This document shows, piece after piece, positions 13,500 to 60,800 of a DNA stretch of 64,000 bases (the first letter of the stretch is position 1; every line of letters starts with the position of its first letter). Source of the stretch: Dysidea avara. Taxonomy: Eukaryota > Porifera > Demospongiae > Dictyoceratida > Dysideidae. The DNA lies in NCBI RefSeq assembly GCF_963678975.1, contig NC_089280.1, positions 15,598,780-15,662,779 on the forward strand, written 5' to 3'. A model generated the notes under the pieces. The model was not told the DNA's origin, searched no databases, and saw nothing but the letters and a program-made list of their open reading frames with translations. Position numbers and translations under genes: made by a program.

Positions 13500-13862
13500 T
13501 TATGTTCATTCGCGGTGCCAGGTCCAGTTTGCACCGATTGCTGTGCAGTCGCTGAGGCTCGTATTTAAGTTCACTTGCATTTGCTTATTATGTATTATCT
13601 ACTGTTTTCATTTAAAATTAAAAATAAAAATACGAAGCGTTTACCACTAGCCTACAACCCATCGGCATCCGAAGGCTGACACAACAATGTACGCAAAGTT
13701 ATATCTACCTGTTGAATTAGCAGACGGTACCTGTTTCATACCACAATCCACTGAAAAACAGGAGCCAGTTACAGTAGCCAAAACCTCGAGCGAGTTGCCG
13801 GGCTTTTGATCAGTCCTACTCACCCACGCATCATTAGCGTAGCAAAGTCACGTGCCCTTATC
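13500..13862 (+). promoter_or_regulatory. Upstream region of the TRAF-like gene
   Basis: The interval between the transposon at 13494 and the gene's first ATG. It has no open frame of note and is less AT-rich than its surroundings from about 13730. An in-frame TTG extension to 13806 is possible on paper, but the ATG at 13863 (ATCATGG context) is the natural start. No TATA box or defined operator could be identified. Confidence 0.3.
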
Positions 13863-15551
13863 ATGGCGATAGCCTCATGTACGCTGGGTAATATTGGTGG
13901 ATACTCCGGTGGATATGACTACAAGTTTGTTAATACTCCACCAGACCGTCTCATCTGTAAAATATGTCACCTTCCCAGTCGACAAGCATTCCTGACTACT
14001 TGTTGTGGACATATTTTTTGTAAGTCCTGTTTGGACAATGCTAAGAGAAACACTGCTGTTAATTGTTGTCCAGTGTGTCGTGATGAAGAATTTATCTCAT
14101 ACACTAACAAACAAGCTGACCGAGAGATTAGGGGTCTTCATGTGATGTGCATTAACGTGGAGAGAGGCTGTGAGTGGCAGGGTGCGCTGAGTGACATCGA
14201 CAACCACCTTGGAAACAGTGATGGTTGTCAGTTTGAAGATGTGAATTGTATTAATGATTGTGGGATGATGCTCCAAAGGCGACATATGGCCAGTCATGTT
14301 AAGACTGAGTGTACTTGTCGTAAAATCAACTGCCAGTACTGCGATATTATAGGAGAACATCAGTTTATTGACGGAGAACACAAGAAACGGTGTCCCAAGT
14401 TTCCCCTTTCCTGTCCCAACAAATGTGAAGTAGGGATTATCCTTCGTGAAGACATGGAAACACATAAGAATGAATGTCCTTTTGAGGAAGTTGAATGTTT
14501 TGTAAAATGTGGAAAGATACTACGACGACAAGATTTGACTAGTCATATTGAGAATGAGTGTCCTTGTCGTAAGGTCAACTGTCAGTACTGCCACAGTACA
14601 GGAGAACATCAGATTATTGAGGGAGAACACAAGGAGCAGTGTCCAAAACTTCCTTTACCCTGTCCTAACAAATGTGAGGTAGAGAGCATACCATTTGAAG
14701 ACATGGAAGCACACAAGAAGGAGTGTCCTCTTGAGATAGTCCAGTGTGAGTATCACAATGTGGGGTGTGGGGAGAGGATGATGCGTAAGGACCTAAAGAA
14801 ACACGGCAGTGAGAAAATGAAAGAACACCTTTCATTGACTAAGTCTTCATTAGCTTCCACTACACAGCGCTTGAATGAAACTCAACAAGAACTGTCACTG
14901 ACTTATCAGGAGCTATCATCTGAATTGGCTGACACAAAGTCACAGCTTAATAGTGCATTGGAACAGATCAACTCACTAATGATTTTGGTACATCAAGCAG
15001 CTATTCCCCACGGGCACACTAGTGGTAATTTAGCATCGATTGCCTCAAGGACAAAATGGTGGGCTAAACTAGCTGCTATGGCAGCAATCAACAGATCAGG
15101 TGATCAGGTATGCCCAGTAATTGTGAATATGTCAGACTTTACAAAAGTTAAGAGAGACAATCTTGAATGGTACAGTGAGTCTTTCTATACTCATGATAAG
15201 GGATATAAGATGTGCCTAAGAGTTGATCCTGCTGGTAACGGTGATGGTCAAGGTACTCACTTGTCAGTGTTCCTGTATATTACGAAGGGTCCACATGATA
15301 AACAATTAACTTGGCCAATTAAGGGAATATTTGAAATAAAATTGTTGAACCAAATTGGTGACCATCAACATTTCTCAGAGACGGTGAAGTTTGGTGATCA
15401 TACCCCAACCAGTAGAGTTACTTTTGGTGAGAGGTCTACCAAAGGGTGGGGAAGAAGAAAGTTCTTTTCCAATGAAGACTTCTTTAAAGTCACTTGTACA
15501 CGACAGTATCTCAAAGATAACTGTGTCTTCTTCCAAGTTGGCAAACTATAG
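13863..15551 (+). CDS. TRAF-like RING / TRAF zinc finger / MATH protein
   Basis: An intronless 562-residue protein. RING finger at about residues 32-73 (CKIC...CCGHIFCKSC...CCPVC), the E3 ubiquitin-ligase module. TRAF-type zinc fingers at about 100-310, in repeated blocks: CRKINCQYC / HKKRCPKFPLSCPNKCE, then CRKVNCQYC / HKEQCPKLPLPCPNKCE. A coiled coil at about 315-375 (SSLASTTQRLNETQQELSLT...), and a C-terminal MATH/TRAF-C domain at about 405-560 (GYKMCLRVDP, THLSVFLYI, VTFGERSTKGWGRRKFF). TRAF proteins trimerise under TNF/IL-1/Toll-type receptors in the cytosol and activate NF-kB and JNK signalling. The order matches TRAF2/3/4/6-like proteins; two near-identical zinc-finger blocks suggest an internal duplication. 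AATAAA follows at about 15602. The lack of introns suggests a retrogene-type or expanded family origin. I cannot tell the orthologue group. Confidence 0.94.
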   Translation: MAIASCTLGNIGGYSGGYDYKFVNTPPDRLICKICHLPSRQAFLTTCCGHIFCKSCLDNAKRNTAVNCCPVCRDEEFISYTNKQADREIRGLHVMCINVERGCEWQGALSDIDNHLGNSDGCQFEDVNCINDCGMMLQRRHMASHVKTECTCRKINCQYCDIIGEHQFIDGEHKKRCPKFPLSCPNKCEVGIILREDMETHKNECPFEEVECFVKCGKILRRQDLTSHIENECPCRKVNCQYCHSTGEHQIIEGEHKEQCPKLPLPCPNKCEVESIPFEDMEAHKKECPLEIVQCEYHNVGCGERMMRKDLKKHGSEKMKEHLSLTKSSLASTTQRLNETQQELSLTYQELSSELADTKSQLNSALEQINSLMILVHQAAIPHGHTSGNLASIASRTKWWAKLAAMAAINRSGDQVCPVIVNMSDFTKVKRDNLEWYSESFYTHDKGYKMCLRVDPAGNGDGQGTHLSVFLYITKGPHDKQLTWPIKGIFEIKLLNQIGDHQHFSETVKFGDHTPTSRVTFGERSTKGWGRRKFFSNEDFFKVTCTRQYLKDNCVFFQVGKL

Positions 15552-25570: not shown

Positions 25571-25800
25571 CACTGTAAAAATTTAGTAGTGAATTGCTCT
25601 GCCACAATACTCACTACTTTTAAGTAGTGACGTTCACTAGTTTTTGTAGTGAACATCACTACTTGGTGGTCAATGTAGTGACGTTCACTACAAAATTAGT
25701 AGTGAACGTCACTACACAAAAATAGTGAGTATTGTGGCAGACATTAGTAGTGACGTTCACTACATTTAGTAGTGACGTTCACTAGTTTGTTTTTACTGTG
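25571..25800. mobile_element. 230-bp MITE made of TAGTGACGTTCACTA motifs
   Basis: The left end CACTGTAAAAA and right end TTTTTACTGTG are inverted (one mismatch) with TA flanks. The interior carries about six copies, in both orientations, of the palindrome TAGTGACGTTCACTA, and a CCACAATACTCACTA / TAGTGAGTATTGTGG inverted pair. The CACTG start matches the larger element at 19710, so both could be served by related transposases. No coding capacity. Confidence 0.7.
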
Positions 25801-26554
25801 TATATCCCGGTTTAACTTATTATTGAAACCATGTAACTTGCATTCTTAAAGGGTGACCTTAAACCTTTGTGATGTACTCTGCCCTTACTAGGGTCTAGAG
25901 TACACTTGGCTTAAACATATAGACTTTTAAGGCACATATGTATTTTGTACTTCAAGTAAAAGTTTAAGAGTACACATGCCCACTCTTTGCAAAACCAATG
26001 CTAGTTCCATGACTTCAAGTATAGTCATTCCACTGATTAGATCATTCACATTACATTTACAAGGCAATATCCAAAAGATAATATCATAGATTTCTAAAGT
26101 TAGTTTGAGTTTTGTCCTTTATATGTACAGTCTGCACTAAAGTGTATATGTAGGGCATTGTTTTGTCCCCTTATGGTATAATTTCAATGTAGTGTGTAAC
26201 TGTGTATGCATATATATCAGATTTAGTACATGTGCAGCTCTTACATGCACATTAACTCTTACATGCCAAGTTTGGTAGACACACACTATGTGTGATTAGG
26301 TTACCAACCTTGTGTGCATGTAAAGTGGCTTCTACCCATGGTCATGGGAAGCTGCTAATGGTTCTATCAATTGAAATGTATACACTGCATCTTTTATATG
26401 CTTGTAGTAAATGACTGGGAAATGGCATGTGATCAAATGCACTGTGTATTGCATGCATATATATTTACTGAGTTTGAGCAAGCTAAAAATAATACCATTT
26501 GGAAAAATTATATTATATGGCTTCTAAACTACACTACTTCCTGTTGACTGCGAC

Positions 26555-26642: not shown

Positions 26643-29600
26643 ATGAAGTTTATCATAGCTGTGTGTGCTGTTGCTATCATTTTATGTCAGACTTCTAATA
26701 CTGATGGTAATGGTGTCGCTACGTAGCTACATAGTTCTACTAGTTGCGTATGCTTAATTGTATTAAGGTGTCTTTTATTCATGATGAGTTCTACAGTGCT
26801 AAACCCCACAGAGTTTGGGAAAGTAGAAACAAAGGCTGCATGACTGTTGTCTAATCTGAGTGGCTTTGACCCAATAACAATTAAGTTTGGTCTCAATGGT
26901 CAAACCTACATTGTGGTATGTATGGACTTGATTGCAACTGACCAAATGAATGAAAATTTCAAGCTGTTTTTTTTTTGTCAGTGGGAAAGAAAAACCTTTA
27001 ATGATCCCTATTATTGTACAAGTGTGCACTTGATGATACTAATTGTACAAGTTATTATTTGTTTCCTCCTCTCAACTATATAGCTATTACAGTTAGTTTC
27101 CAGCAGTCCTCATACTCTTTGGTTGAAGATGCAGTTAGTTTTAGTATTTTGTTAGATCTAAGTGTACCACTGTCTAATGACTTCACTGTGACTGTCATCA
27201 GTTCAGATATCACTGCTACTGCTAATGGTACGTAATATAACTACTGATAAAAAGCAAAAAAATATGATAAAACTACATACTGTGCATACACATTAGGTCA
27301 CTATATTTTGTTAAATCATGTTTGCCCTCAGGATGTTACAAAAAAAGTGTTGATATATAGATAGGTTATTACAATTATCCTTTGCCAATATGAATATACT
27401 CACTTTAGTTAGTTTGGTTTCCTAATAAACAATACCCTCTGCCATACTGATGTTAAGTCTTGTACATAAGTGATTCTGAACTACTGCAGTAAAGAGATAC
27501 ATTTGGCTGGTGAGCAACATGACAAAATTGTGCCAAATAAGGTAGTAATAGCAAAAATACAATTGTGACTCAGTAACATGGAACGAGAAATACTTTTATA
27601 GTTTATAGATTTAAATGAATTTAGCAAGTAAACAACACTGCAGTTATGGTTTACAAACACACACAATTCATTGCAAGACTCAAGTAAAACAGTACTCATG
27701 TATGTGTATGATGTTTCTAGATGATTATTTTCCTGGACCATTTGGGATCACATTTTCACCAGGGCAAACCAGACAGTCATTGTTTACTTTCATAGAAGAC
27801 GACATTATATTGGAGTCCGATGAAGTTTTCAGTTATTCGATTGACTCTTCTTCTTTCCCAAATGGTGTTACCACTGGCAACTTTGCCACGATCAATATAA
27901 CAATCTTGGATGATGAATGTAAGTAATTGTAGGCTATAATCTACAATTATTTTAACAATCGATTCAGTTGTTGTATGCATGCAGGTGTGTATGAATGTAT
28001 AAAGTATGTACACTGCAACATAAACAGGTTGACAGAAAAATTGCCCTAGAATCTGTACAGGGGGCACAAATTACTTTAGTGAAACAAAGTTATGAATATT
28101 AGTTGAGAGAAACTTGTTAGTATTGTATCATTTTTTCTATGTCCACTCTAACAATAGTGTATACGTATAGTTCTATGCTACTTTGTTAACTTCATATCTG
28201 CTTCACCAGGGGCGGATCCATACTTTATAAAAAAAGAGGCTCCATTTTGGAACATGGTAATTAGTTGTATAGCTTCAGTATAGGTGCTGAGTAGTAATGA
28301 ATAATCATCCTCCTGCAGTGTTTCACTGTGAAATCTTACTATAAGATGCTGGGTAGTAATTTCATGTGATTTACAGTAAAGAGAAATAATATGAGTGGTT
28401 TGCTACTATAAGTGTTTCCTATATAGACTGCATGATAAGCTGAAATTTAAAGAAAGCTTGTCAGCAGCTAATAAAGTAAAATTAAAGCTCTTCCAAAACA
28501 GGGTTCACCCCAGGTACTGGATCTGCCTCTGTTCACATCTCCCTGTATATACACATTCTTTCTCTTAGTTTAGTTACCAATTTTTGAACTTTAACCTCAG
28601 ATTGATTCATTAAATGTATCAAACCTACAAATATTAGCTATAGGTATAATACATTGTATTAACTATATAGTAGTGCTGTATTTGTTTATCATGTAGCTAC
28701 GACTGTGAGGTTCAGTCAGTCAAGGTTTAATGTCACTGAAAACAGAGGACCAGCGCAAGCTATGTTAGTCTCAGATGAACCATATTCCAATGAAGTTGTG
28801 ATAAATGTCATTGCTAGTGCAAATACTGCTCATGCCAATGGTAAACAATGTGCCTAAAAATGTAAAAGTTGTATAGGAGACTTAGTTTATAAAACTTAAA
28901 ATTACACTTTTAATTTAGACAATTTAATGGATGCACTTGACCAGATCTGTATTACATTGTATGACAAGCTGTTGTGAAGGAAAGTGAGGATGATGCTTTT
29001 TAAATGGGTTGTTTCATCTCGCTTGTTTCTTAGTTTTACACATAATCCTTATATATATACTCAAATTCCTATTTTTCTTTGTACTTGTAAAGTAGAAAAA
29101 AATTGGCGTACATCTTAAAATTTCTTTACATGCCGGATTATTGTCTTATTTCTAGATGATTTTATAGCTGGAACATACAGTGCCACCTTTCTGCCTGGAG
29201 TAAACACTGCTTTATTTGAAATTAGCATAACAAATGATGATGACTTTGAATCTACTGAAGAATTCACTGTTTCCATTGACACACATCCCGCATTTATACC
29301 TAGTGGTGTACTGATTGGTGACCCATCACAAGCTATTGTAGAAATATTGGATGATGATGGTGAGCAAATTTAGATTTGTCATACTTTTGTATATGCATGC
29401 CACTCCAAGTCACCAAAGTCACATTCAGGCTATAAATGGTTTGTACAGTTACAGTAGTATAAGGTATACAAACTACAATACAGCAACCAAACATGCCTAT
29501 ACATGAATGATAAGCAACTAAATCTTTTGTTTCTCAGACTGAAACTAGTTGAAAAGTGGGTCGGTAGGTAGGTATAAATAAAATAATAATAGGTGCAGGG

Positions 29601-30850
29601 TAATAATTTTTAAAACTGAAGTTATGGCAACACGTATAACTACGATGTTTGATAATGACTAGTACATTTAAATGACCAAGCGTCCATCCATAGTCTGCTT
29701 TTACAACTCTTCTTGTAATAACCAAGCTCACCCCAAGCATAGCAGATATGGATGGCCAATAATACATCTACACCACAAGCTCATGTGATTAAACACGTGA
29801 TCTTTAAAAATGAACAAAAATATTTCATTTACAAATTTTATGGGTCAGTCGGGTCCGAGGAACAAGAAATTTAGTTGAAGTGGCCTAAGTAGAATTTGTA
29901 TTATTATGTTATAAGACCATTAAATTACTGTTATAATTCTGCATGCATTGCTGGTAGCTACACAGAAAAACAATATTATACCTTGGCTAGCTTTATACCA
30001 TGTAACAACATACTAGTGGCAAGTTAAACTTAAAGCAGAAACACGCAAATGTCTTTTTTAGGTGGCCAAACCATTAAAAATGATCCTCATTTCTTCATAC
30101 CACTACCTAATGGAGAAAACTTGTGCTATAGTGTGCAAGGACAACCCGACTTTATGTTCAGTTTGATCAAAGACAAGTATGTACAGTTGAATGCTCAGTT
30201 TGTGCTGCCTGCCAGTGATGAGAGCCACACAATTGCCAATGTCTCTACATTTCTTGGTGATCTTGGGCTATTATTAAGATGTCCAGATACTGGTATTACT
30301 ACAGCTATCCAAGTGTCTGCAAGAGATCACAGTATCAAAGTGGAAAATGAACATGTTGTTGTTGGGAACAAACCAGTTACAGTAACAATTTCTAACACAT
30401 CTGTTACTGCTACTGTGTATGCTGATGTGCAAGACAAATTGAAAGATGAATCTGCTTGGCTTTACATCAACTCAGTCATTGGATTTGGAATGAAAGTAAG
30501 ATTCTATAAGAAACATTTAGACATGATGATTACCAAAAGTGATGGATTAACTGGTGAAGCAGATGGATTGATAGGTAAGTGTATGTGGTCATGTATTCAT
30601 ACAAATGGGGTATTGTACTTGTCCATCAACAGGACAATTTATGAAGAAAATAATTGAAATTGATGAAAACTACAAAATAATGAAGATAGCAAATCACAAG
30701 CCAATAGCAGTAGTGAAGGGTCCAGCGTGGCACTTCTTAGGAACTGATGACCAGTGTTGGTATGGAGTATCCACTGATAACCAGGGGACTGGAGTGATAG
30801 AAGGCACTTATTTAGATTATGTGGTAGAAGATCTCCTTCCAGGGTTTTGA
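26643..30850 (+). CDS. Secreted protein, 2 x Calx-beta plus ITIH_C-like domain (gene 1)
   Basis: Seven exons: 26643-26706, 27084-27227, 27721-27918, 28697-28840, 29156-29359, 30062-30574 and 30633-30850, giving 494 residues. All six introns are GT-AG and in phase 1. Exon 1 is a signal peptide (MKFIIAVCAVAIILC). Exons 2-3 and exons 4-5 each make one Calx-beta domain at residues 22-135 and 136-251, with the GQTRQSLFTFIEDD / LESDEVF and acidic ILDDE ends of this calcium-binding beta-sandwich. Exons 6-7 (252-494) resemble the inter-alpha-trypsin inhibitor heavy-chain C-terminal domain: NDPHFFIPLPNGENLCYSVQ, GQP, LIGQF, and a final CWYG...GVIEGTYLDYVVEDL. Calx-beta modules form the core of sponge aggregation factors; ITIH C-regions join extracellular matrix. 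An extracellular matrix or recognition role is inferred. No transmembrane segment follows. AATAAA lies at about 31221. Intron 5 is about 390 bp longer than in gene 2. Confidence 0.9.
28207..28531. mobile_element. MITE in intron 3 of Calx-beta gene 1
   Basis: The 325-bp element has ends CAGGGGCGGATCCA and TGGATCTGCCTCTG, with TTCAC duplicated at 28202-28206 and 28532-28536. A degraded copy lies at the same intron position in gene 2 (about 34285-34680, sharing the right flank TTCACATC), so it inserted before the gene duplication. Confidence 0.8.
29514..29890. repeat. Insertion specific to gene 1 intron 5
   Basis: About 380 bp between CATGAATGA and the AGTAGAATTTGTAT segment is absent from the matching intron of gene 2. 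It begins near GGGTCGGTAGGTAGGT and ends near GGGTCAGTCGGGTCC. Its class is not recognised; no clear inverted ends. Confidence 0.4.
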
Positions 30851-31996
30851 CATGACTGAAAGTATTGCATTGCCTTTCTTAATTGTATAATTTTTGCATC
30901 TCCATATTCATAATGTACAATGTTAGTACAGCAGTTTTCTACAGTGGATTTTGCATTGGATTCTACTTTGGATTTTGCATTGTATGTATTTTATTACTTG
31001 ACTTTAAAGCTGTGGCCAGTTTTAAAACTGCAGGTGGTTGGCTGGTTTTAAATGGGAAATGCATACGTCCATAAAATCTCTAAACACTTAGTTAACTAGT
31101 TGGCATGCAGTTGCAATGAAGCTATTCCAGATAATGCATGCAGACAATGTAGTTGTCAACAATACAACAATGGAGGAAGATTTGAGGAACACATTAAGAA
31201 GTTTAATTTGATGAGAGAAATAAATTAAATGTACGTAGCTAATTAAACAAGTTTGTATCTGAGCTGCTTTATGCAGTACTATCGTACTGTATGATACTTA
31301 TGTGTTGTACATCTTAACTTTTTTACAATTTACTACAGAGATTTAGAGCAGTGGCTGAACAGATCTCAAACCTTTGTAAAGGTATACATGTACTCTGCTC
31401 TTACTAGAGTTTAGAGTACACTTGCTTAAACACATAGCTAGACTTTTAAGGCACATGTATTTTGTAAAATTTTAGAGTACACATGCCCACTCTTTGTAAA
31501 AGAATGCTAGTTCTATGGTTTCAGTAAGAATGTAAGATCATTCCACTGATTAAATCATCCACATTGTATTTGCAAGGAACAAATGGATTGAAGTTAGTTT
31601 GAGGTTTGTCCTTTATATGCTGAAGTGTATAATGTAGGGCATTGTTTTGATCACCCTTATGGTGATATTTCAATGTCATGTGTGTATGCATATAATGTAT
31701 ATCAGATTCATGTAGTACATGTGCAGCTCTTTACATGCACATTAGCACCAAGTTTGGTAGACACACTATAATGTGATTAGGTTACCAATCTTGTGTGCAT
31801 GTAAAATGGCTTCTATCCATGGCCTGCTAATGGTTCTACTAATTGAAATGTAAACTTGTATACATATACATTTACTGGATGAACAAGCTAAAAATAATAT
31901 TTTAAAAACCATTGAGAAAAATGTTTTGTATGGCTTCGTTTTGTATGTCTTCGTTTTGTATGGCTTCTAAGCTATACTACTTCCTGTTGACTGTCA

Positions 31997-32077
31997 CAAT
32001 AAAAGAGGTTAGCAGACACTGCAGGTGCACTTTGCTGAGCACAGAACACTGTGTAACTTCATTAGGTTGTGTTGAGA
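31997..32077 (+). promoter_or_regulatory. Conserved proximal promoter of Calx-beta gene 2
   Basis: CAATAAAAGAGG followed by TTAGCAGACACTGCAG, matching the block before gene 1 with few changes and ending about 80 bp before the ATG. Confidence 0.4.
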
Positions 32078-35000
32078 ATGAAGTTTATCATAACTCTGTG
32101 TGCTGTTGCTATCATTTTATGTCAGACTTCTAATACAGATGGTAATGGTGTAGTTAATTATGTGCATAGTTATAGTCTAGTTAAATAAGATGTTTAGTTC
32201 TTTCTCTTATTCAGGATGAGCTCTAGACAGAGATGGGGTAACGCGTTACGTAATATATATTACAATTCACGATTCTGAGTAATAACGCGTTACTTTTGGA
32301 AATGCAGTAATATAACTTTAAGTTACTTTTGGAAACTATAATTCGTTACTAGTAACGAAAGAAGTTATATTATTACGTAACGAGTAGCTGGAAGCGAAAA
32401 GTAACGAGTAACTCTACAGCGATGTAACGAGTAACTCTACAGCGATGTAACGAGTAACTCTACAGCGATGTAACGAGTGATACTACGAGTAAAGATGAAC
32501 AAGTAACGCATTATAAATGGATTTTACTGCCAATTATCCATTCCACTATTAATTAATCACCATAATCCATTAACCTTTCTTTTATAATGGTGCTCAGGTG
32601 TTGCACGTACACGTGACTGATGTGCATCACGTGACTGCACGTGGTTTATATGTTAACTTTAACTTAGCTGTCTTGTAACTTAGCATTAGTAACTTAATAT
32701 TTGTAGCTAATATTATTAAGTTAGTAACTTAATATGTAATATTATTAAGTTACTCTTTATTCTAAGTAATATGTAACTGTAATATATTATACTGATATAA
32801 AAGTAATATGTAATAGCGATGTAATACTTTCATGAAGTAACTTCCCCAACTCTGGCTCTAGAGTAGGTAAACCCCACAGAGTTTGGGAAACCAGAATATC
32901 AGATTGACGGCTGGCTGCATGACTGTCATCTTATCTGGCCCAATAACAACCTTGGTCTCAAAGGTCTTACCTACATTGTGGCATGATTTCACCTGCCCAA
33001 TCCCAGTGTTGAATGAAAATTTGAAGTTTTTTTTGTCAGTGGGAAACAGAAACCTTTGGTGATCCCTATTATTGCACAAGTGTGTACTTACTTAATGATT
33101 ATACAAGTTATACTATTTGTTTTTCTCCTCTTGACTATGTAGCTGCTACAGTTAGTTTCCAGCAGTCCTCATACTCTTTGACTGAAGCTGGAGCTCGTTT
33201 TGGTATTTCATTAGATCTAAGTGAACCACTGTCTACTGAGCTCACAGTGACTGTCATCAGTTCAGATATCACTGCTACTGCTAATGGTACGTAATAAATG
33301 CTGATAAAAAGAAAAAAATATGATAAAACTATATATTGTGCATACACATTAGGCCACTATATTTTGTAAAATCATGTTTGCCATCAGGATTTGCAAAAAA
33401 AATAAATAAAAAAATTGTGTTGGTATATAGATGGGCTGTTACAATTATCCTTTGCCAATATAAATATGCTCACTTTAGTTAGTTTGGTTGCCTAATAAAC
33501 AATACCTTCTACCAAACTGATGTTAAGTTTTGTGCATAAGTGTTTCTGAACTATAGTTGTTTATTGCAGTAAAGAGATGCATTTGGCTGGTGAGCAACTT
33601 GACCAAATAATTGCACCAAAAAAGGTTATGATTCAGTAACATGGAAGGAGAAATACTTTTCATAGCCTTTAGTTTTAAATGAATTTAGCAAGTAAAAAAA
33701 ATATACTTCAATTATGGTTGTACAAACACACACAATTCATTGCAAGACTTATGCATGTGTATGATGTTTCTAGATGATTATGTTCCTGGACCATATAGCA
33801 TCACATTTACACCAGGGCAAACCAGACAGTCACTGTTGTTTAACATAGAAGAAGACAATATATTGGAGTCCGATGAAGTTTTTAGTTTTTCGATTGACTC
33901 TTCTTCTTTGCCAAATGGCGCTACCACTGGCAACTTTGCCACAACCAATATAACAATCTTGGATGATGAATGTAAGTACTTAATTGTAGGTGTAATCAAA
34001 CATTTACAACATATTTTGGCAATCAGTTGTTATATGCATGCACATGTGTATAAGTATGTATACCAACATACGTACATAAACAAGTTGACAGAAACATTGC
34101 CCTAGAATCTGTGCGCTGGGAACAAATCACTTTGCAAGGCATTAGTAAAATGAAGTTATGAATGTTAGTTGAGAAAAACTTGGGCATCCATTTTTCCATG
34201 TGACCATGTCCTCTCTAATAATAGTGTATATATATGTATAGTTCTATGCTACATTGTTTATAAAATTTTTTACTTCATATCTGCTTTGGATCCAGACTTT
34301 TAAAAAGGGGCTCCATTCTGGAACATGCATTGCAAATAGTTGTATAGCTTAAGTGTACGTAGTTACTGAGTAGTAATAAATAATCACTTTCCAGCAATGT
34401 TTCACTGTGAAATCTTATTAGATGTTGGGTAGTAATTTCATGTGATTTACAGTAAAGAGAAGTAATATGAGTTGTTTGCTACTATAAGTGTTTTCTTGAC
34501 TGATAAGCTGAATTGGTTTACTTTTTAAAGAAAACTTGTTAGCAGCTCATAAAGTAATATTGAGACTCTTCCTAAAAGGGGGTTCACCCCAGGAATTCCC
34601 CCATCCCCTTTTGGAAGAGCCTTAATATTACTTTATGAAAATCATGGAACCCTTTAAACCTTTCCCTGGAACTGCACCTGTTCACATCCTCCTGTATATA
34701 CATTCTTTCTCTTAGTTGAGTTACAGATTGATTCATTCATTAATGTATCAGACCTACAAATATTAGCTATAGGTATACATGGTATTAATTAGTAACGTAT
34801 TTGTTTATCATGTAGCTACGACTGTGAGGTTCAGTCAGACAAGATTTAGTGTCACTGAAAACAGAGGACCAGCACAAGCTACATTAGTCTCAGATGAACC
34901 ATTTTCCAATGAAGTTGTGATAAATGTCATTGCTAGTGCAAATACTGCTTATGCCAATGGTAAACAATTGTGCATAAAAATGTAAAAGTTATATAGGAGA

Positions 35001-37734
35001 CTTAGTTTATAAAACTTATAAAAATTACACTTTTAATTTAATGGATGCACTTGACCAGATCTGTACTACATGCATGGTATGACAAGCTGTCTTGAAGTAA
35101 AAGTGAGGGTGACACTTTTTCAACAGGTTATTTCATCTTGCTTGTTTCATTACTTTTATATTTACACATAATCCTTATATACACAAGTACACAAAAAATT
35201 TAAATTTTCAACTAGAGTAGGGACCATAGCACATCAATAAATAGTGCTGAAACAAGCTGGAGTAGTGCACGATATTAAATCACAGTAAAACAATAAGAAG
35301 TGTTATATCCCTACTGTGCATTTCCATTATGGTATCTTGAGCACAGTAGGGATATTACACTTCTTATTGTTTTACCGTGATTTAATATTGTGCACTACTC
35401 CAACTTGTTTCAGTACTTTTTATCGATGTGCTATGGTCCCTACTCTAGTTGAAAGTTCCAAATTGTTTTGTGTGCTTGTTTGTTAACTTTTTTTGTAAAC
35501 AATTATTATGACTGGTGAATTCATGCATACCGCATCTGAAATGGCGCTGCACGCCTCAGCTATATCAATTATCTTCTGAAAAGTGAAGTATCCATTATGC
35601 TTTGTTGTCAGCCATGTTCAACCCGTTACACAGCATTTCGGATCAAGAACTGTTTGAAAAGCACCTCTGTAATCCATGCATACTGAAAGAAAGAAATGGT
35701 GCCGTGCCCCAGTTATATCAATTATCGTCTGAAAAGTGAAGTATCCATTACGCTTCGTTGTTGGCTATGTTCAACCCGTTACACAGCAGTATGACTCAAG
35801 AACTGTTCAAAAAGCATCTCTGCAATCAAAATAGCCGCTATGAAAATACAGACGATTTCCATTACGAAGGGAAGCCATCACGTGTTACTGCCAAATTGAC
35901 ACTTCTGCTGTCAGCAAAGATGAATGGGACACAAAGGAGGACCCATGAAGAATGTATTGTACGTACTACGGTATACCAAAAAGGCACCTCTCGGACTGAA
36001 GTGACGTCGAACAGTGAAAAAATCAAGCCCGTAGCCTTAGCTGTTATCAAGTTATGCTTGTCTGAAGCATCAGTCAGTCAGTTACTCAGTCAGTAGAAAA
36101 TTCCGCTAAATAACTTTTTTTTAAATTCCGTAGCACCTTGTTAAAAGCATTTCAGGCTTGTTTGGGCTTAGTTTTACCTAACCAATACTGCCTCATCATT
36201 GTCAGGGAAAATTGAGGTTGGTTTTTGGATGATGTTATTTTGTGGGCCACACCTACTCCTTTGTGGTCCCTACTATACAGTACTATCATACTGTATGATA
36301 CTCAAATTCCTATTTTTCTTTTGTACTTGTAAAGTAGGAAAAAAATTGGTGTGCATCCGTAAAAATCTAAAATTTCTTTACATACCGGATTATTGCCTTT
36401 CTAGATGATTTTATTGTTGGAACATACAGTGCCACCTTTCTACCTGGAGTAAACACTGCTTCGGTAGAAATTAGCATAACAAATGATGATGACTTTGAAT
36501 CTACTGAAGAATTTACTGTTTCCATTGACACACATCCCGCATTTGCACCTAGTGGTGTACTGATTGGTGACCCTTCACAAGCTATTGTAGAAATATTGGA
36601 TGATGACGGTGAGCAAATTAGATTTGTCATACTTTTTGTATATGCATGCCATTTCAAGTCACCAAAATCACATTCAGGCTATAAATGGTTTGTACAGTTA
36701 CAGTATAAGGTATACAAACTACAATACAGCAGATAAAAATATACCTATACATGAATGATTAGTAGAATTTGTATATTATATAAGACCATTAAATTACTGT
36801 TATAATTCTGCATGCATTGCTGGTAGCTACACAGAAAAACAATAGTATACCTTCTAAAAATGTTTGTAATAGCTATCCATTTATGTAGCAACATACCAGT
36901 GGTAAGTTAAGCTTGGCAGAAACACATCAAATGCATGTCTTTTTTAGGTGGCCAAACCATTAAAAATGATCCTCATTTCTTCATACCACTACCTAATGGA
37001 GAAAACTTGTGCTATAGTGTGCAAGGACAACCCGACTTTATGTTCAGTTTGATCAAAGACAAGTATGTACAGTTGAATGCTCAGTTTGTGCTGCCTGCCA
37101 GTGATGAGAGCCACACAATTGCCAATGTCTCTACATTTCTCGGTGATCTTGGGCTATTATTAAGATGTCCAGATACTGGTATTACTACAGCTATCCAAGT
37201 GTCTGCAAGAGATCACAGTATCAAAGTGGAAAACGAACATGTTGTTGTTGGGAACAAACCAGTTACAGTAACAATTTCTAACACATCTGTTACTGCTACT
37301 GTGTATGCTGATGTGCAAGACAAATTGAAGGATGAATCTGCTTGGCTTTACATCAACTCAGTCATTGGATTTGGAATGAAAGTAAGATTCTATAAGAAAC
37401 ATTTAGACATGATGATTACCAAATGTGATGGATTAACTAGTGAAGCAGATGGGTTGATAGGTAAGTGTATGTACATGTATTCATACAAATTGAGTATTAC
37501 ACTTGTTCATAAATAGGACAATTTATGAAGAAAATAATTGAAATTGATGAAAACTACAAAATAATGAAGATAGCAAATCACAAGCCAATAGCAGTAGTGA
37601 AGGGTCCAGCGTGGCACTTCTTAGGAACTGATGACCAGTGTTGGTATGGAGTATCCACTGATAAACAGGGGACTGGAGTGATAGAAGGCACTTATTTAGA
37701 TTATGTGGTAGAAGATCTCCTTCCAGGGTTTTAA
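32078..37734 (+). CDS. Secreted protein, 2 x Calx-beta plus ITIH_C-like domain (gene 2)
   Basis: Exons 32078-32141, 33143-33286, 33774-33971, 34816-34959, 36405-36608, 36948-37460 and 37517-37734. Each has exactly the length of its gene 1 counterpart (64, 144, 198, 144, 204, 513 and 218), giving 494 residues with all introns in phase 1. Same order: signal peptide (MKFIITLCAVAIILC), Calx-beta 1, Calx-beta 2, ITIH_C-like end. By direct comparison, amino-acid differences from gene 1 are 12/48 and 13/66 in the first Calx-beta exons, 5/48 and 4/68 in the second, and 2/170 and 1/72 in the ITIH_C exons. Introns 1 and 4 carry transposon insertions absent from gene 1. No break was seen, so both copies look functional. 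The falling divergence suggests partial homogenisation. Confidence 0.9.
32228..32854. mobile_element. hAT-type MITE in intron 1 of Calx-beta gene 2
   Basis: The 627-bp element has ends CAGAGATGGGGTAAC and (reversed) CAGAGTTGGGGAAGTTAC, and a perfect 8-bp duplication GCTCTAGA at 32220-32227 and 32855-32862. The GTAACGCGTTACG-type subterminal sequence is known from hAT-like elements in many animals. Inside is a 23-bp tandem unit (GTAACGAGTAACTCTACAGC...) in three copies at about 32398-32470. It is absent from gene 1, so it postdates the duplication. Confidence 0.85.
34285..34680. mobile_element. Degraded MITE in intron 3 of Calx-beta gene 2
   Basis: Counterpart of 28207-28531: the left tip is reduced to TTGGATCCAGAC and the right end reads CTGCACCTG before TTCACATCC. 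It has about 70 bp of additional sequence near its right end. Confidence 0.65.
35206..35454. mobile_element. Nearly perfect fold-back element in gene 2 intron 4
   Basis: Arms 35206-35319 and 35341-35454 are inverted repeats of about 114 bp with only a few mismatches, around a 21-base loop. The tips read TTTCAACTAGAGTAGGGACC. A transcript would form a very long hairpin. It is absent from gene 1, so it arrived after duplication. Confidence 0.85.
35490..36200 (+). repeat. Dispersed repeat copy with internal duplication
   Basis: Same family as 360-1000. It starts near ATTATGACTGGTGAAT and ends in CAGTCAGTCAGTTACTCAG. A segment of about 155 bp (TATATCAATTATCTTCTG to GAACTGTT) is tandemly repeated (about 35557-35680 and 35710-35830). 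The open frame at 35758-36096 is part of the repeat; its product (FNPLHSSMTQELFKKHLC, GTQRRTHEE) has no domain I know. It lies in intron 4 of Calx-beta gene 2 and is missing from gene 1. Confidence 0.6.
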
Positions 37735-38389
37735 TGAGACCACTAATAGTAATAATTATCATTGCCTTTTAAAATTAATGTGCAGTTTTTGTATTTACAT
37801 TATATATGTGATTTCTGTGTTGGATTTTGCAAGACTAGCTACATACGAATATATATATATGCTATGGCTCAACTTTTATCCTGTGACTGGTTGTAAAACT
37901 GCTCAACCTGAAGTAAAAATGGGAGTGTCTGTAAAAATCTCTCAACACTCTAATATGCTGAGTATGTGCATTGTAATGATAGCTGTTCCAGTGATTATCC
38001 AAATACATCTGCACACAATGCAGTTTCCGGTTTGACAACACAATGAAGGATTTTAAGGAACACATTAAGAAGTTTGACTTGATGAGAAATGCATTTATGC
38101 AAATGCCCATGACTGAATTAGAGATAACATGTCCACTAGCAAGTATATTTGCAGGTGTAAGCTACTTCCCTTGTTTCACTTATTATTATTAATTTATTTA
38201 TAATTGCTCTGTCATACAATGACAATTCTGCATTTTGGATTCGATTTTTACTTAATTGAATCCGAAAATTCTAAAATTTTCCGTTTAACAACTTGTGCAC
38301 ACATGTAGTTGACTTTAATTCTGTGGAACAGCTTGCCACTTTTTATAACTTAAAGTTTCTACTTAAGTTATCAAAGTTGCACTATCTTT

Positions 38390-49429: not shown

Positions 49430-51783
49430 AGTTGAAGTCGCCACGGAGTGACTTGTAACATAACTAAACTCTACAGAAAGAATTGCAAGATAGCCAAACT
49501 TTATACAGGGTAGTTTTATTGTAGGTGAACCCTCTACAGGGTGACATGTTCTAGCTGAACTCTCTACAGGGTATATAACCTGGTTCTATCTGATCTCTCT
49601 ACAGGGTGAATTGCTTCTAACTTATCCTTCTACAGGGTGATATGTTTCAAGCTGACCTTTCTACAGGGTGATTTGAATTGCAGCTGATTTTTCTACATGA
49701 TGACTTGTTTTTAGCTAAACTCTTTACAGGGTAACTTGTATCTAGCTGATCTCTCTACAGGATGATTTATTTCTAGCTCTTTAACTGTTTTAAGCCGATA
49801 TCTCTACAGGGTGACTTGTTTTTAACTGATCTCTCTACAGGGTGATTTATTTCTAGCTCTTTCTACAGGGTAACTGTTTCAAGCCGATATCTCTACTGGG
49901 TGACTTGTTTCTAACTGATCTCTCTATGGAGTGATTTGTTTCAGGCTGATCTTTCTACAGGGTGATTTGAAATGTAGCTGATCTTTCTACAGGGTGACAT
50001 GCTTCTAGCTGAATTCTCTACAGGATAACTTGGTTCTATCTGATCTCTCTACAGGGTGAATTGTTTCTAACTGATCCTTCCACAGGGTGATATGATTCCA
50101 GCTGACCTTTCTACAGGGTGATATTGAAATGTATCTGATTTTTCTACACAGTGACTTGTTTCTAGCTGATCTCTCTACAGGGTAAATGATCTCTCTACTG
50201 GGTAACTTGTTTCTGACTGATCGCTGTACAGGGTGATTTGTTTCAAGCTGAGTTTTCTATAGGGTGATTTGAAATGCAGCTAACCTCTCTACAGGATGAC
50301 ATGTTTCTAGTTGACCACTGTACACAGTGACTTGTTTCTAGTTGATCACTAGACAGGGTAACTGATCTCTCTAACTGGGTGACTTGCTTCTAATTGTTCT
50401 CTCTACGGGGGTGATTTGTTTCAAGCTGATCTTTCTACAGGGTGACTTGAAAATTTTTTAAACTCTTTACAGGGCAATTTATTTCTAGCTGATCTCTGTA
50501 CAGGGTGATTTGTTTCTAGCTGGTCTTTCTACAGGGTGACTTGTTTCTAACTGATCCTTCTATGGGATGATTTGTTTCAAGTTAACATTTCTACAGGGTG
50601 ATTTGAAATATAGCTGACCTCGCTACAGGGTGACTTGTTTCTAGCTAGCTATTCTCTCTACAGGGTGACTTGTTTTTAGTTGATTTTTCTACAGGGTGAC
50701 TTCTTTCTGGCTGTACTCTCTGTACAGGTTGACTTGTTCTTACCAGACCTCTCCAGAGTGATTTGTTTCAAGACAAGGTGAATGTAACTGATATCTTTAC
50801 GAGGTTACTTGTTTCACTGTGGCTTATTTCTAGCTGAAACATTCTACAAAATGTACCTGAACTTTCTATAGGGTGACTTATTTCTAGCTGATTTCTCTAC
50901 AAGGTGACTTGTATCTAGCTAACTCTCCACAGTGTAACCTGATCTCTCTACAGGGTGATTTGTTTCTAGCTGAACTCTCTACAGGGCGACTTGAAATGTA
51001 CTTGAACTCTCTACTTGGTGGCTTAATCAAGCCGATCTCTCTACAGGGTGATTTATTTCTGGCTTATCTCTCTACAAGGCGATTTGTTTCTACTGATCTC
51101 TCTTCATAGTGACTTGCTTATACGTAGCTGCATGAACTCTTTATGCATGGTGACTTGTTTCTAGCTGATCTCTTAACAGGGTAGTTTGTTTCAGTTGAGC
51201 TCTCTACAGCGTGACTTGAAACGTAGCTGAAATCCTTGCAGGGTGACTTGTTTCTAGCTGATTTCTCTACAGGACAATTTGTTTCTAGTTGATTTTGATT
51301 TGTTTCTGGCTGATCTCTCTACAGGGTAATGTTTTCTAGCTGATCTCTATTCTAATAGATTTGGTTCTAGCTGATATCTCTACTGTGTGACTTGTTTATA
51401 CGTAGTTGATCTCTCTACAGGGAAACTTGTTTCTATTGAACTTTCTACAGGATGACCTGATCTCTCTACAGGGTGATTTGTTTCTAGCTGATCTCTCCAC
51501 TAAGAGATTTGGTATCTCTACTGTGTGACTTGTTTATAGCTGATCTTTCTACAGGGAAGCTTGTTTCTACTGAACTCTCTGCAGGGTGACTTGTTTCTAG
51601 CTGATCTTTCTACATAGTGATTTAGCTAATCTTTTTTTCCAGCTGATCTTTCCACAGAGTGACTTGTTTCTAGATCTACAAGGTGATTTGTTTCCAGCTG
51701 ATCTCTCTACAGGATGACTTGCTTCTAGCTGATCTCTCTACAGGGTTATTATGTAGCTGATCTCTCTACTGAGTGACTTGTTG
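49430..51783. repeat. 31-bp minisatellite, left block
   Basis: Tandem degenerate units of about 30-33 bp with consensus CTGATCTCTCTACAGGGTGA followed by CTTGTTTCTAG. Roughly 75 units; the most constant parts are CTCTACAGGGTGA and TTGTTTCTAGCTGA. Units vary by substitution and small indels, and a few dimers recur (for example the CTAACTGATCTCTCTAC types). No conserved open frame; one short frame at 50909-51109 simply reads the repeat. It continues after the hAT element. Confidence 0.9.
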
Positions 51784-53982: not shown

Positions 53983-54985
53983 AACTCTCTACTGGGTGAC
54001 TGGAAGTATAGTTGAACTCTCCACTGGGTGACTAGATCAAGCTGATCTCTATACAGGGCAATTTGTTTCTAGCTGACCTCTCTTCATGGCAACTTGCTTA
54101 TAACTGCATTAACTCTGTATACACAGTGACTTGTTTCTATCTGATCTCTCTGTACGGCAGCTTGTTTCTACTGAACTCGCTCTTGAAACATAGTTGAACT
54201 TTCTGCAGGGTGACTTGTTTCTAGCTGATCCCTCTTCAGGGTGATTTGTTTCTAGCTAATCTCTCTAGGAGTGACTTGAAAAGTAGCTGCATGAACTCTT
54301 TGCAGGGTGACTTGTTTCTAGCTGATCTCTGTACAGCGTGATTTGTTCCTTGATCTGCTTCTAGCTGATATCTCTACTGTGTGACTTGTTTCTAGCTGAC
54401 CTCTCTACTGAGAGATCTGCTTCTAGCTGATATCTCTACTGTCTGTATGACTTGTTTATAGCTAGTCTCTCTACAGGGCAGCTTGTTTCTACTGAACTCT
54501 CTGCAGGGTGACTTGTTTCTAGTTGATCTTTCTATAGGGTGTCTTGTTTCTACCTAATCTCTCTTTGCATCTAGCTGTTCTTTCCACAGGGTGACTTGTT
54601 TCTATCTCTACAAGGTGATTTGTGTCCAGCTGATCTCTCTACAGGATGATTACATAGCTGATCTCTCTACTGGGAGACTTGTTTCTAGCTGATCTCTCTA
54701 CAAGGTAACTTGTTTCCAGCTGAACTCTATACAGGGTGACTTGAAATATAGTTGAATTCTCTTTAGGGTGACTGGTTTCTAGCTGATCTCTTCACAGGGT
54801 AACTTGTTTCTAGCCGATTTTTCTACAGGGTGACTCTAGCTGAATACTCTACAGGGTGACTCAATGTATCAGTAGTTTAACACTTTGCAGGGTGACCTGA
54901 TCTTTCCACATGATTATTTTATTGCAGTTGAGTTGTATACAAAGTGGCTTATAACTGAGTTAGATTCTCTACAGGACATAGTTGA
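53983..54985. repeat. 31-bp minisatellite, right block
   Basis: Continuation of the 49430-51783 array with the same unit (for example CTGATCTCTCTACAGGGTGA and CTTGTTTCTAGCTGA), about 30 units, becoming more degenerate towards the right end. It ends near ATAGTTGAATGC; a CTCTATTAGAGTATCTCGAT motif follows at 55041. Confidence 0.88.
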
Positions 54986-57545: not shown

Positions 57546-57802
57546 TGTTACGGATGTACGATAATCTTCTATACCGGTCGTAACAGCTACCAGGTTCTGC
57601 AGGTCGGAACGCCCGATGAAAGCCACTCGACTCTTGTAACCTTGCAACACGAGGCGGGGAGAACTCTATCTAACGCACACACAATAGCTCACGTGTACAA
57701 GCACACAAGGGGAAATACCTAAGTTTATGACCTAACCTAATACAATAAATAAATGAATGTACACTAGCTACAAATAGAGTTATTCAGTCATCAATCTCGA
57801 CA
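57546..57802 (-). repeat. 3' LTR of the BEL/Pao element
   Basis: 257 bp. On the minus strand it reads TGTCGAGATTGATGACTGAA ... CCGTAACA. The polyprotein frame ends inside it at 57784, so the last codons of the protein are encoded by LTR sequence. An AATAAATAAATG stretch (plus strand) lies at about 57748. Confidence 0.95.
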
Positions 57803-60800
57803 TCCTCCGGGGGGCGGCGTAGAGTTTCAGTCCATTCACTCAACTGTTTCCTTGCTCTTACAGCAGCGGCTCTAGGGTGTCTGGGTGAAACTTGATCAGT
57901 ATTCTGTTGGACAGTTGACTCAGTTTCCTGTTGAACTGGCTCAACATCTGTCGAGGGATCTTCCACTTCCAGGGGGTATAGACGGGCAATGGGACGGTTG
58001 GTACGTCCACTTGCTGTGCGTACCGTCACTGATCGGATATACCCATCATTCCCCTTCACAAGTTCCTCAATTACTCCAAGTTTCCAACGGCTTCTGGGTA
58101 TGTCATCATGAATTTGTACCACATCACCTGTCTTCACTGTCTGTTCCATAGAGCCCGCTGTACGGTGTCTTTCTCGTAGGGAGGTCAAGTACTCCTTTTT
58201 CCAACGAGATACAAAGTGTTGTAACAGCAGCCCCTGCCGGTCCACCTTACTTCGCAGTTGTTCAGCTGAAGGATAATCTGGGTCTGCAATCTCTTCTTCC
58301 TGTACATCAGGGTGTGGTAGGGCAATGATTCGGCGACCATACAGTAAGTGAGATGGTGTTAATGGCACCAGGTCTCCTGTGGAGGATGGAAGGTAGGTCA
58401 GTGGTCGATCATTAAGTACTGCCTCTACTTCCACAATAGTAGTCTGTAAGGTGTTCAGAGTGATGAAGGCTCGGCCCAAAGTCTTCTTCAAAGACATCTT
58501 CACCATCCCGACTAACCTTTCCCAAAAGCCCCCATACCAAGGGGCTCTCTTGGGAATGAACTTCCATGTTGTGCCCCTGCATGTGAGAGCAGACTGCAGT
58601 GTTCGTGACTGGAAAAGCTCATTTAATTCCTTTGCTGCTGATGCGTAGGTCGAAGCATTGTCAGATATAATTAACCGAGGTAATGACCTGCGTGCTGTAA
58701 ATCTACGGAAGGCTTGTAGGAAGGTTTCCTCAGTAAGATTAGTCACCACTTCAAGGTGCACTGCCCTGGTACTGGCGCAGGTGAACAGGCAGACATATAC
58801 CTTGTACTCACCAGTTGCTCCTTCACTCTTCACATACATGGCTCCTGTGAAGTCAACTCCAGTTACACTGAAGGGAGGCCCATCTTGGACTCTGGCCAGC
58901 GGCAGTGGTGGGGGATCAGGGGTAGGGAATGGTTTACCAGCGACTCTGCGACAGATCACACACTTCCTTAGTAACTTGGCTACCACTCTTCGTGCTGCTG
59001 GAATCCAGAAGCATTGTCTTAGGGCTGTGACAGTAGCATGAGTGCCTCCATGTAATTGAGTGGCATGAGTGGCGTACACAATCAATGTGGTCAGTCTGTG
59101 ATTCTCAGGGAGGAGGTAAGGAAACTTGGTGTTGTGGTCAACAGGAGCATTATGTATCCTCCCGCCACAGCGGAGAAAATTGGAGGAGTCTAAAAACAAT
59201 CGAAGCTGTCTGACTAGTGGCAAACGTCTAGTAGATGTCTGGCTTCTGTGTAAGGAGTTGATTTCCTTCAAGTATGTTGAGTGTTGGCAGCTTTGTATCC
59301 ACATGTTCTGAGCTTTGCTTAGTTCACCAGCTGTAATTGGTCCTGTAGGCTTGGACCCGTGTGATTTAATACACTCAATGAATCGTAGCACATATGCAGT
59401 GACATATAACAGTTTAGACAGTGTACTGTACCTTTCTATGTCAATGATGGTTGCTACAGAGGATAATTGATTGTCTTCACTTGTTTCCTCAACTGGGTTG
59501 GGGGATAGCACTTCAGTCTCTGCAACAGTGAGTTGAACATGCTGTATGTCAGTCGTACTCCACTGTGGCCGTAACTCTTCACGGACAATCCACTCTGGAC
59601 CATGTGTCCACATACTGGAAGTTCGTAGTGCTGAAAGTGAAATGCCTCTGGTTAACAAGTCTGCAGGATTGTCTGCAGATGGACAGTAACCCCACCATTG
59701 AGCAGGGCAGGCCTCGGTAATTGATGACACACGGTTTGAAACAAACTGTTTCAGTCTCTTGTCACTGTTGAGCCAATGGAGTACGATTTGGCTATCACAC
59801 CACATGTGAACTACGTCAATCTTGTAATTGATTGAGGAATTGATCCAAGTGTACATCTGTGCAGCAACGGTGGCACCCATCAATTCCAGTCTGGGGAGTG
59901 TATGCTGCTTCAGTGGAGCTACTCTAGTTTTGGAAATGACAAATGATGATTCACAGTGTTGATGGAAGTATGCCACTGCGCCATAAGCCTTAGTGCTTGC
60001 GTCACAAAATATGTGTAATTCAATTGGTGCAGCTGTACTCAATCCATTCTTTAAATAACATCGAGGAATAGAGATAATGTGCAATTGTTCAAGATCTTGA
60101 AGTAGTGTCTGCCATTGTTGTTGATGCTCTGGTGGGAGTGGGTCATCCCATGATAACTTCTTCTGCCATAGCTGTTGTAGTAGTAACTTAGTACTAATTG
60201 TAACTGGGGAGGTAAAACCCAGTGGATCAAAGATCTTTGATGATTGTTGCAACACCTCACGTTTCGTAACTGGAGAATCACATGATGGAAAGGCCTTCTG
60301 AGTAAGTGACAAACTATCATTACTTGTGTTCCACACTAGTCCAAGAGTGTTGACTTGTTCACTATTGTCTGCGACATGATCCCTCTCTGCTGCTGCACAA
60401 ACTTGCTTGCTGTTAGATGCCCAGCTCCGTAAATTGAAATTGGCTTCAGAAAGTGTTGTTCGGGCTTCAGTGTAGTATAGAATGGCTTCTTCTTCAGTTG
60501 AGCACCCTGACAAAATGTTGTCCACATACAAATTGTGAAGAAGATCCTTTGCTGTGGTTGAATTGCATTGTGTTAGATGGCAGTGAAGAGCAGCATACAA
60601 CATAAACGGAGAGCTGGCTGACCCAAACAAAACAACTTTGAAGCGGTAGGTCTGAAGTGGGCTCTCAGGATCATCAGGGTTGCATGGCCACAGGAAACGG
60701 GTGAAATCACGGTCCTTGGGGTGTAACTGCACATGCAGAAACGCCTTCTCAATGTCAGCACTGACACCAAACTTGCGGGAACGGAAACGGAGGAGGATAG

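Follow-up and report, generated by a model that had tools for sequence, protein, structure and literature searches.

A gradient of divergence along two tandem Calx-beta genes of the sponge Dysidea avara, probably owed for the most part to uneven purifying constraint

The window analysed here is a stretch of 64,000 nucleotides of Dysidea avara (assembly GCF_963678975.1, contig NC_089280.1, positions 15,598,780 to 15,662,779 of the forward strand), and all positions given below count from its first letter. From its sequence we rebuilt two intact genes on the forward strand, gene A (26643-30850) and gene B (32078-37734), each encoding 494 amino acids in seven exons. Exon lengths are the same in A and B (64, 144, 198, 144, 204, 513 and 218 bases), as an initial annotation of the locus had reported and as we found for all seven exons. 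The boundaries are GT-AG in 12 of 12 introns, all introns are in phase 1 as computed from the exon lengths, and neither reading frame contains a premature stop. In gene A, exon 1 (26643-26706) carries the start codon and a likely signal peptide, exons 2 (27084-27227) and 3 (27721-27918) encode the first and second halves of Calx-beta domain 1, exons 4 (28697-28840) and 5 (29156-29359) those of Calx-beta domain 2, exon 6 (30062-30574) a region resembling ITI_HC_C, and exon 7 (30633-30850) the C-terminal end with a TGA stop. The exons of gene B lie at 32078-32141, 33143-33286, 33774-33971, 34816-34959, 36405-36608, 36948-37460 (exon 6, with the ITI_HC_C-like region) and 37517-37734 (exon 7, ending in TAA).

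Each gene sits in a larger duplication unit that runs from its 5' flank to its 3' flank on the forward strand, and the two units, delimited by their mutual homology, are arranged head to tail with approximate ends at 25858 and 31216 for A and at 31372 and 38087 for B. Stretches tested beyond the unit ends scored at the level of shuffled sequence (156 and 101 of 200 shuffles reached the score). The 3' flanks inside the units, past the stop codons (30851-31072 and 37735-37933), are more diverged than the introns and still alignable, both parts beating 200 of 200 shuffles. Introns 1 and 4 are longer in B (1001 bases vs 377, and 1445 vs 315), and intron 5 is longer in A (702 vs 339). The roughly 1.1 kb by which intron 4 is extended in gene B include a part that is self-complementary (87% across some 300 bases, 35183-35479 and 35518-35827) and, after it, a direct repeat about 157 bases long (81%); the insertion looks like the remnant of a mobile element. 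The extra 650 bases or so in intron 1 of gene B (about 32209-32855) hold a 23-base unit repeated 3.4 times free of mismatches. Short palindromic repeats occur at 25600-25790, just upstream of the unit of gene A; a promoter and terminator scan of 25600-25860 was uninformative, its consensus patterns being bacterial. A tblastn search for further copies within the window returned A, B and matches of their domains to one another; the four remaining rows had E-values of 1.8 or worse.

Both proteins begin with a hydrophobic segment and look secreted, and no later strongly hydrophobic segment was found in either (no 19-residue stretch past residue 30 above a Kyte-Doolittle value of 1.34). All four Calx-beta domains (PF03160) of A and B exceed the Pfam gathering score of 27 bits, the first domain scoring 49.3 bits in A vs 63.0 in B and the second 63.0 vs 64.8. 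Residues 306-434 match PF06668 (ITI_HC_C) weakly, with E-values of 4.5e-6 in A and 1.2e-5 in B, and narrowly miss its gathering score of 27 (26.9 and 25.5 bits); as these scores come close to the cut-off while staying under it, we call the region no more than ITIH_C-like. A von Willebrand D match (PF00094) in A stayed below its gathering score (14.8 vs 22.9 bits), and none was listed for B at E-values up to 1. The exon 6 sequence gave a best E-value of 0.45 against solved structures, and a fold predicted for exon 6 alone from the two sequences was too poor to use (mean pLDDT 41.9, pTM 0.32). Gene A has an additional N-glycosylation sequon at residue 147, and residue 411 is a cysteine in B and a serine in A, which leaves B with four cysteines past the N-terminal segment vs three. 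In Calx-beta domain 1, the stretches NDD, LESDE and LDDE, which we take to be typical of Calx-beta calcium sites, are unaltered between A and B; residue 96, adjoining one of these stretches, is aspartate (D) in gene A and glutamate (E) in gene B.

Counted exon by exon, the two proteins differ at 2/21, 12/48, 13/66, 5/48, 4/68, 2/171 and 1/72 residues in exons 1 to 7. These figures reproduce the earlier residue counts, except that exon 6 has 171 residues where 170 had been given, and the base differences in exon 6, previously put at about seven of 513, amount to 6/513. Substitution rates computed by the Nei-Gojobori method were 0.042, 0.143, 0.109, 0.052, 0.036, 0.005 and 0.006 for dN and 0.074, 0.057, 0.107, 0.076, 0.152, 0.036 and 0.000 for dS in exons 1 to 7, the synonymous values resting on small counts (between 1 and 6.5 changes for each of exons 1-5, 20.5 in total). 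Grouped, exons 2-3 have a dN of 0.123, a dS of 0.084 and an omega of 1.46, exons 4-5 have 0.042, 0.119 and 0.36, and exons 6-7 have 0.005, 0.025 and 0.21. The initial annotation had implied a general 5'-to-3' gradient of divergence, and this is true of replacements, dN falling more than 20-fold from exons 2-3 to exons 6-7, but dS is roughly level over exons 1-5 (0.06-0.15) and lower only in exons 6-7, and noncoding divergence is not monotonic.

In a gap-tolerant alignment, introns 1 to 6 differ by 0.137, 0.091, 0.113, 0.076, 0.048 and 0.143, the 5' flank by 0.088 and the 3' flank by 0.173, the last from a gap-rich alignment. With one-sided stretches left out, introns 4-5 came out less diverged than introns 1-3 with each of four alignment settings (p = 0.0004-0.003), while intron 4 by itself is not clearly lower (p = 0.066). 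The silent dip is about twofold over introns 4-5 and deeper at the synonymous sites of exons 6-7 (4/161). Inside it lies a diverged island, intron 6 of gene A (30575-30632, forward strand), which differs at 8/56 aligned bases from its counterpart in gene B (37461-37516, forward strand), although exons 6 and 7 on either side are about 99% identical between the genes; why a short intron should be diverged where its neighbouring exons hardly differ is a minor puzzle. Divergence is likewise high in the 3' part of intron 5 (9/79), and this part pooled with intron 6 (17/135) differs from the synonymous sites of exons 6-7 (p = 0.001).

Setting replacements against these noncoding rates separates the domains. 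Exons 1-5 are as diverged at their synonymous sites as introns 1-5 (p = 0.89), and replacements in exons 2-3 (30/260) match introns 1-3 (167/1495, p = 0.83). Replacements in exons 4-5 (11/266) are fewer than in exons 2-3 (p = 0.002) and fewer than changes in introns 3-5 (p = 0.007), and those in exons 6-7 (3/568) fall far below introns 5-6 (23/366, p = 2e-7). The ratio of replacement to silent changes is 30:6 in exons 2-3 vs 14:13 in exons 4-7 (p = 0.012); these are rounded from fractional counts, and 29:7 in place of 30:6 gives p = 0.027. A chi-square test over the three exon groups gave p = 0.03, and exons 2-3 compared with exons 4-5 alone and with exons 6-7 alone gave p = 0.03-0.06 and 0.04-0.06 respectively. 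Gene conversion would reduce the time for divergence equally at silent and at replacement sites and should leave this ratio unchanged, yet it differs, and the shift therefore points, with moderate strength, to constraint that differs along the protein; the contrast comes from small counts and several uncorrected tests.

We consider it probable that uneven purifying constraint on two tandem duplicates accounts for most of the gradient. Differing constraint between domains is an explanation that was absent from the initial annotation, which had offered recent conversion, diversifying selection or both. A head-to-tail tandem duplication would have produced two intact genes, each coding for a pair of Calx-beta domains followed by an ITIH_C-like C-terminal region, and the copies would since have diverged to about 9-10% at silent sites. 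Selection would keep the C-terminal region (exons 6-7) nearly fixed and act moderately on the second Calx-beta domain, and the first Calx-beta domain would accumulate replacements at about the neutral rate with its frame kept. A silent dip towards the 3' end, possibly left by short or old conversion events, would add to the similarity of the C-terminal halves. We infer that the level of constraint reflects function: the task of the C-terminal region would be fixed, and the first Calx-beta domain would be relaxed or open to adaptation. The synonymous deficit of exons 6-7 and the lower divergence of introns 4-5 are left unexplained by protein constraint. No exon carries a net indel, whereas the rate of introns 1-3 would predict about 13 gap events for the 342 bases of exons 2-3, which indicates that the reading frame has been maintained there. 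The expectation derives from a gap-rich alignment, and the zero may mask a compensating pair near codons 90-93 (judged by eye).

Conversion, in which the 3' part of one copy overwrote that of the other after the duplication, making exons 6-7 and in part introns 4-5 younger, is an unlikely main cause, though several silent-site comparisons speak for it. Synonymous divergence is 4/161 in exons 6-7 vs 16-17/178 in exons 1-5 (Fisher, p about 0.01; binomial p = 0.0006 for four or fewer changes at a fixed exon 1-5 rate), and it is lower than the divergence of introns 4-6 (p = 0.04) but not of intron 5 alone (p = 0.32). Introns 4-5, being less diverged than introns 1-3, also favour conversion, as do the positions of the longest identical runs of DNA, of 206 and 150 bases, which start just before exons 6 and 7, and the sharp loss of similarity past the stop codon. 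A change point at 28542, where silent divergence goes from 0.106 to 0.063, was reached in 13 of 2000 site shuffles, but it weakened when blocks of 50 were shuffled (68/2000) and when noncoding sites were used alone (103/2000, and 380/2000 with block shuffling). Its poor alignment led us to leave the 3' flank out of the change-point and tract tests. The silent-identical stretches span only about 56 silent sites at exon 6 and 49 at exon 7, the diverged intron 6 and 3' part of intron 5 fall within the supposed tract, and a silent-identical tract as long as the longest one observed (84 silent sites, within intron 5) arose in 406 of 5000 permutations. Together the change-point and tract tests lend a conversion tract weak to moderate support. 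Of the proposed conversion of the 3' half, the lower silent divergence in introns 4-5 and exons 6-7 stands, but the dip is interrupted and its longest tract does not clearly exceed chance; likewise, the drop in synonymous divergence that was to be looked for towards the 3' end is present in exons 6-7, but exons 1-5 are level and no clean tract emerges. Conversion is a possible secondary contributor at the 3' end, in the form of partial homogenisation. An assembly artefact, in which two haplotypes were placed in series or the 3' end was copied wrongly, is very improbable: silent divergence between A and B is about 9-10%, introns 1, 4 and 5 differ in length by hundreds of bases, the 3' flank is strongly diverged, the similarity ends at both unit edges instead of running on, and the window contains 200 N in all, with a long run of X in the frames listed at 900-1446, far from the gene pair.

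The other explanation put forward, which we regard as improbable, was diversifying selection on Calx-beta domain 1, such as would be expected of a recognition surface mounted on a constant C-terminal module. In its favour are the omega of 1.46 in exons 2-3 and of 2.53 in exon 2, a cluster of eight nonsynonymous changes at seven codons among codons 35-44, and the alternation, noted by eye from the sequence alone, of replaced residues 40, 42 and 44 with unchanged hydrophobic residues 41, 43 and 45, as in an exposed strand. The excess of dN over dS is not significant (p = 0.41-0.54 in exons 2-3, p = 0.24 in exon 2), in a test of low power, exons 2-3 having 6.5 synonymous changes, and dN in exons 2-3 is not above the introns (p = 0.83). 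The densest cluster was reached in 1681 of 20000 neutral simulations, and none of the four window widths tried gave significant clustering (1681, 4646, 3142 and 3781 of 20000). Domain 1 of A also fits the Calx-beta profile worse than that of B, and drift in A fits at least as well as selection: the lower profile score (49.3 vs 63.0), with the second domains alike, suggests that domain 1 may have drifted more in A than in B. The elevated dN/dS that had been named as the mark of selection in exons 2-3 is present as a ratio but not as a significant excess, and since replacement there equals intron divergence, diversifying selection is not demonstrated. A compound reading scores lower still: domain 1 as a recognition surface under diversifying selection, the C-terminus kept identical by homogenisation confined to exons 6 and 7, which spares intron 6, and the whole a secreted protein for self/non-self recognition. 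We give it very little credence.

Uneven constraint places the pair in familiar company, tandem duplicates with domain-specific constraint being a general pattern. A and B share with it two intact copies, a conserved exon structure, one region that hardly changes and another whose rate is close to neutral, and they differ from it in nothing clear, the odd points being the 3' silent dip and the diverged intron 6 inside that dip. They are, in this light, an ordinary duplicate pair, with the caution that an amino-acid gradient between paralogues will pass for conversion or diversifying selection as long as silent sites are not considered separately. Profile matches link the Calx-beta domains to the regulatory domains of Na/Ca exchangers (3rb5_A, E = 3.4e-7; 3ead_A, E = 9.9e-7), but A and B are not exchangers, because they have no strongly hydrophobic segment after the N-terminus, and they end in an ITI_HC_C-like region. 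The inter-alpha-trypsin inhibitor heavy chains share the weak PF06668 match at the C-terminal residues 306-434, from which A and B differ in scoring below the cut-off and in having no other ITIH-type domain among the listed hits.

Calx-beta domains are linked to sponge aggregation factors, which are defined by Calx-beta domains in an extracellular protein. A and B show the same combination, Calx-beta domains in a secreted-looking protein, but they are short (494 amino acids, two Calx-beta domains), and their own tie to aggregation factors is putative. High polymorphism between individuals is a further mark of aggregation factors; the present comparison covers one sequence. Wreath is a domain specific to aggregation factors, and this family was absent among the Pfam hits of A and B; the motif RGD is absent from both proteins. 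In the portion of the literature available to us, aggregation factors are described as taking part in allorecognition and adhesion (PMC8380372), and the accessible part of a grafting study in Amphimedon queenslandica describes genes of aggregation-factor-mediated adhesion as without significant enrichment (PMC5450542); neither text deals there with A and B. This gene pair appeared in no title among the matches listed by a literature search, which is not proof of absence. If the variable front and constant back were to hold in population data, the pair would become a candidate gene family for recognition that is small and readily studied.

For an outgroup, two patterns of seven residues were searched against a collection of genome contigs, where close animal relatives are not expected: 167 stretches matched and one of them, a bacterial locus (L001), encoded a relative, which at 29% identity over residues 4-251 was too distant to serve. 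A collection of viral contigs, in which close animal relatives are not expected either, gave 102 pattern-matching stretches and no relative.

Elsewhere in the window, a frame of 581 codons on the forward strand (13806-15551) contains four stretches of the TRAF-type zinc finger and a match to MATH, with RING matches slightly under their cut-offs, and is predicted to encode a TRAF-like protein. A frame of 1870 codons on the reverse strand (57784-63396) matches the Pao retrotransposon peptidase, reverse transcriptase and integrase zinc-binding families. Arrays of a 31-base unit with similar consensus lie at 49504-51782 and 54191-54835.
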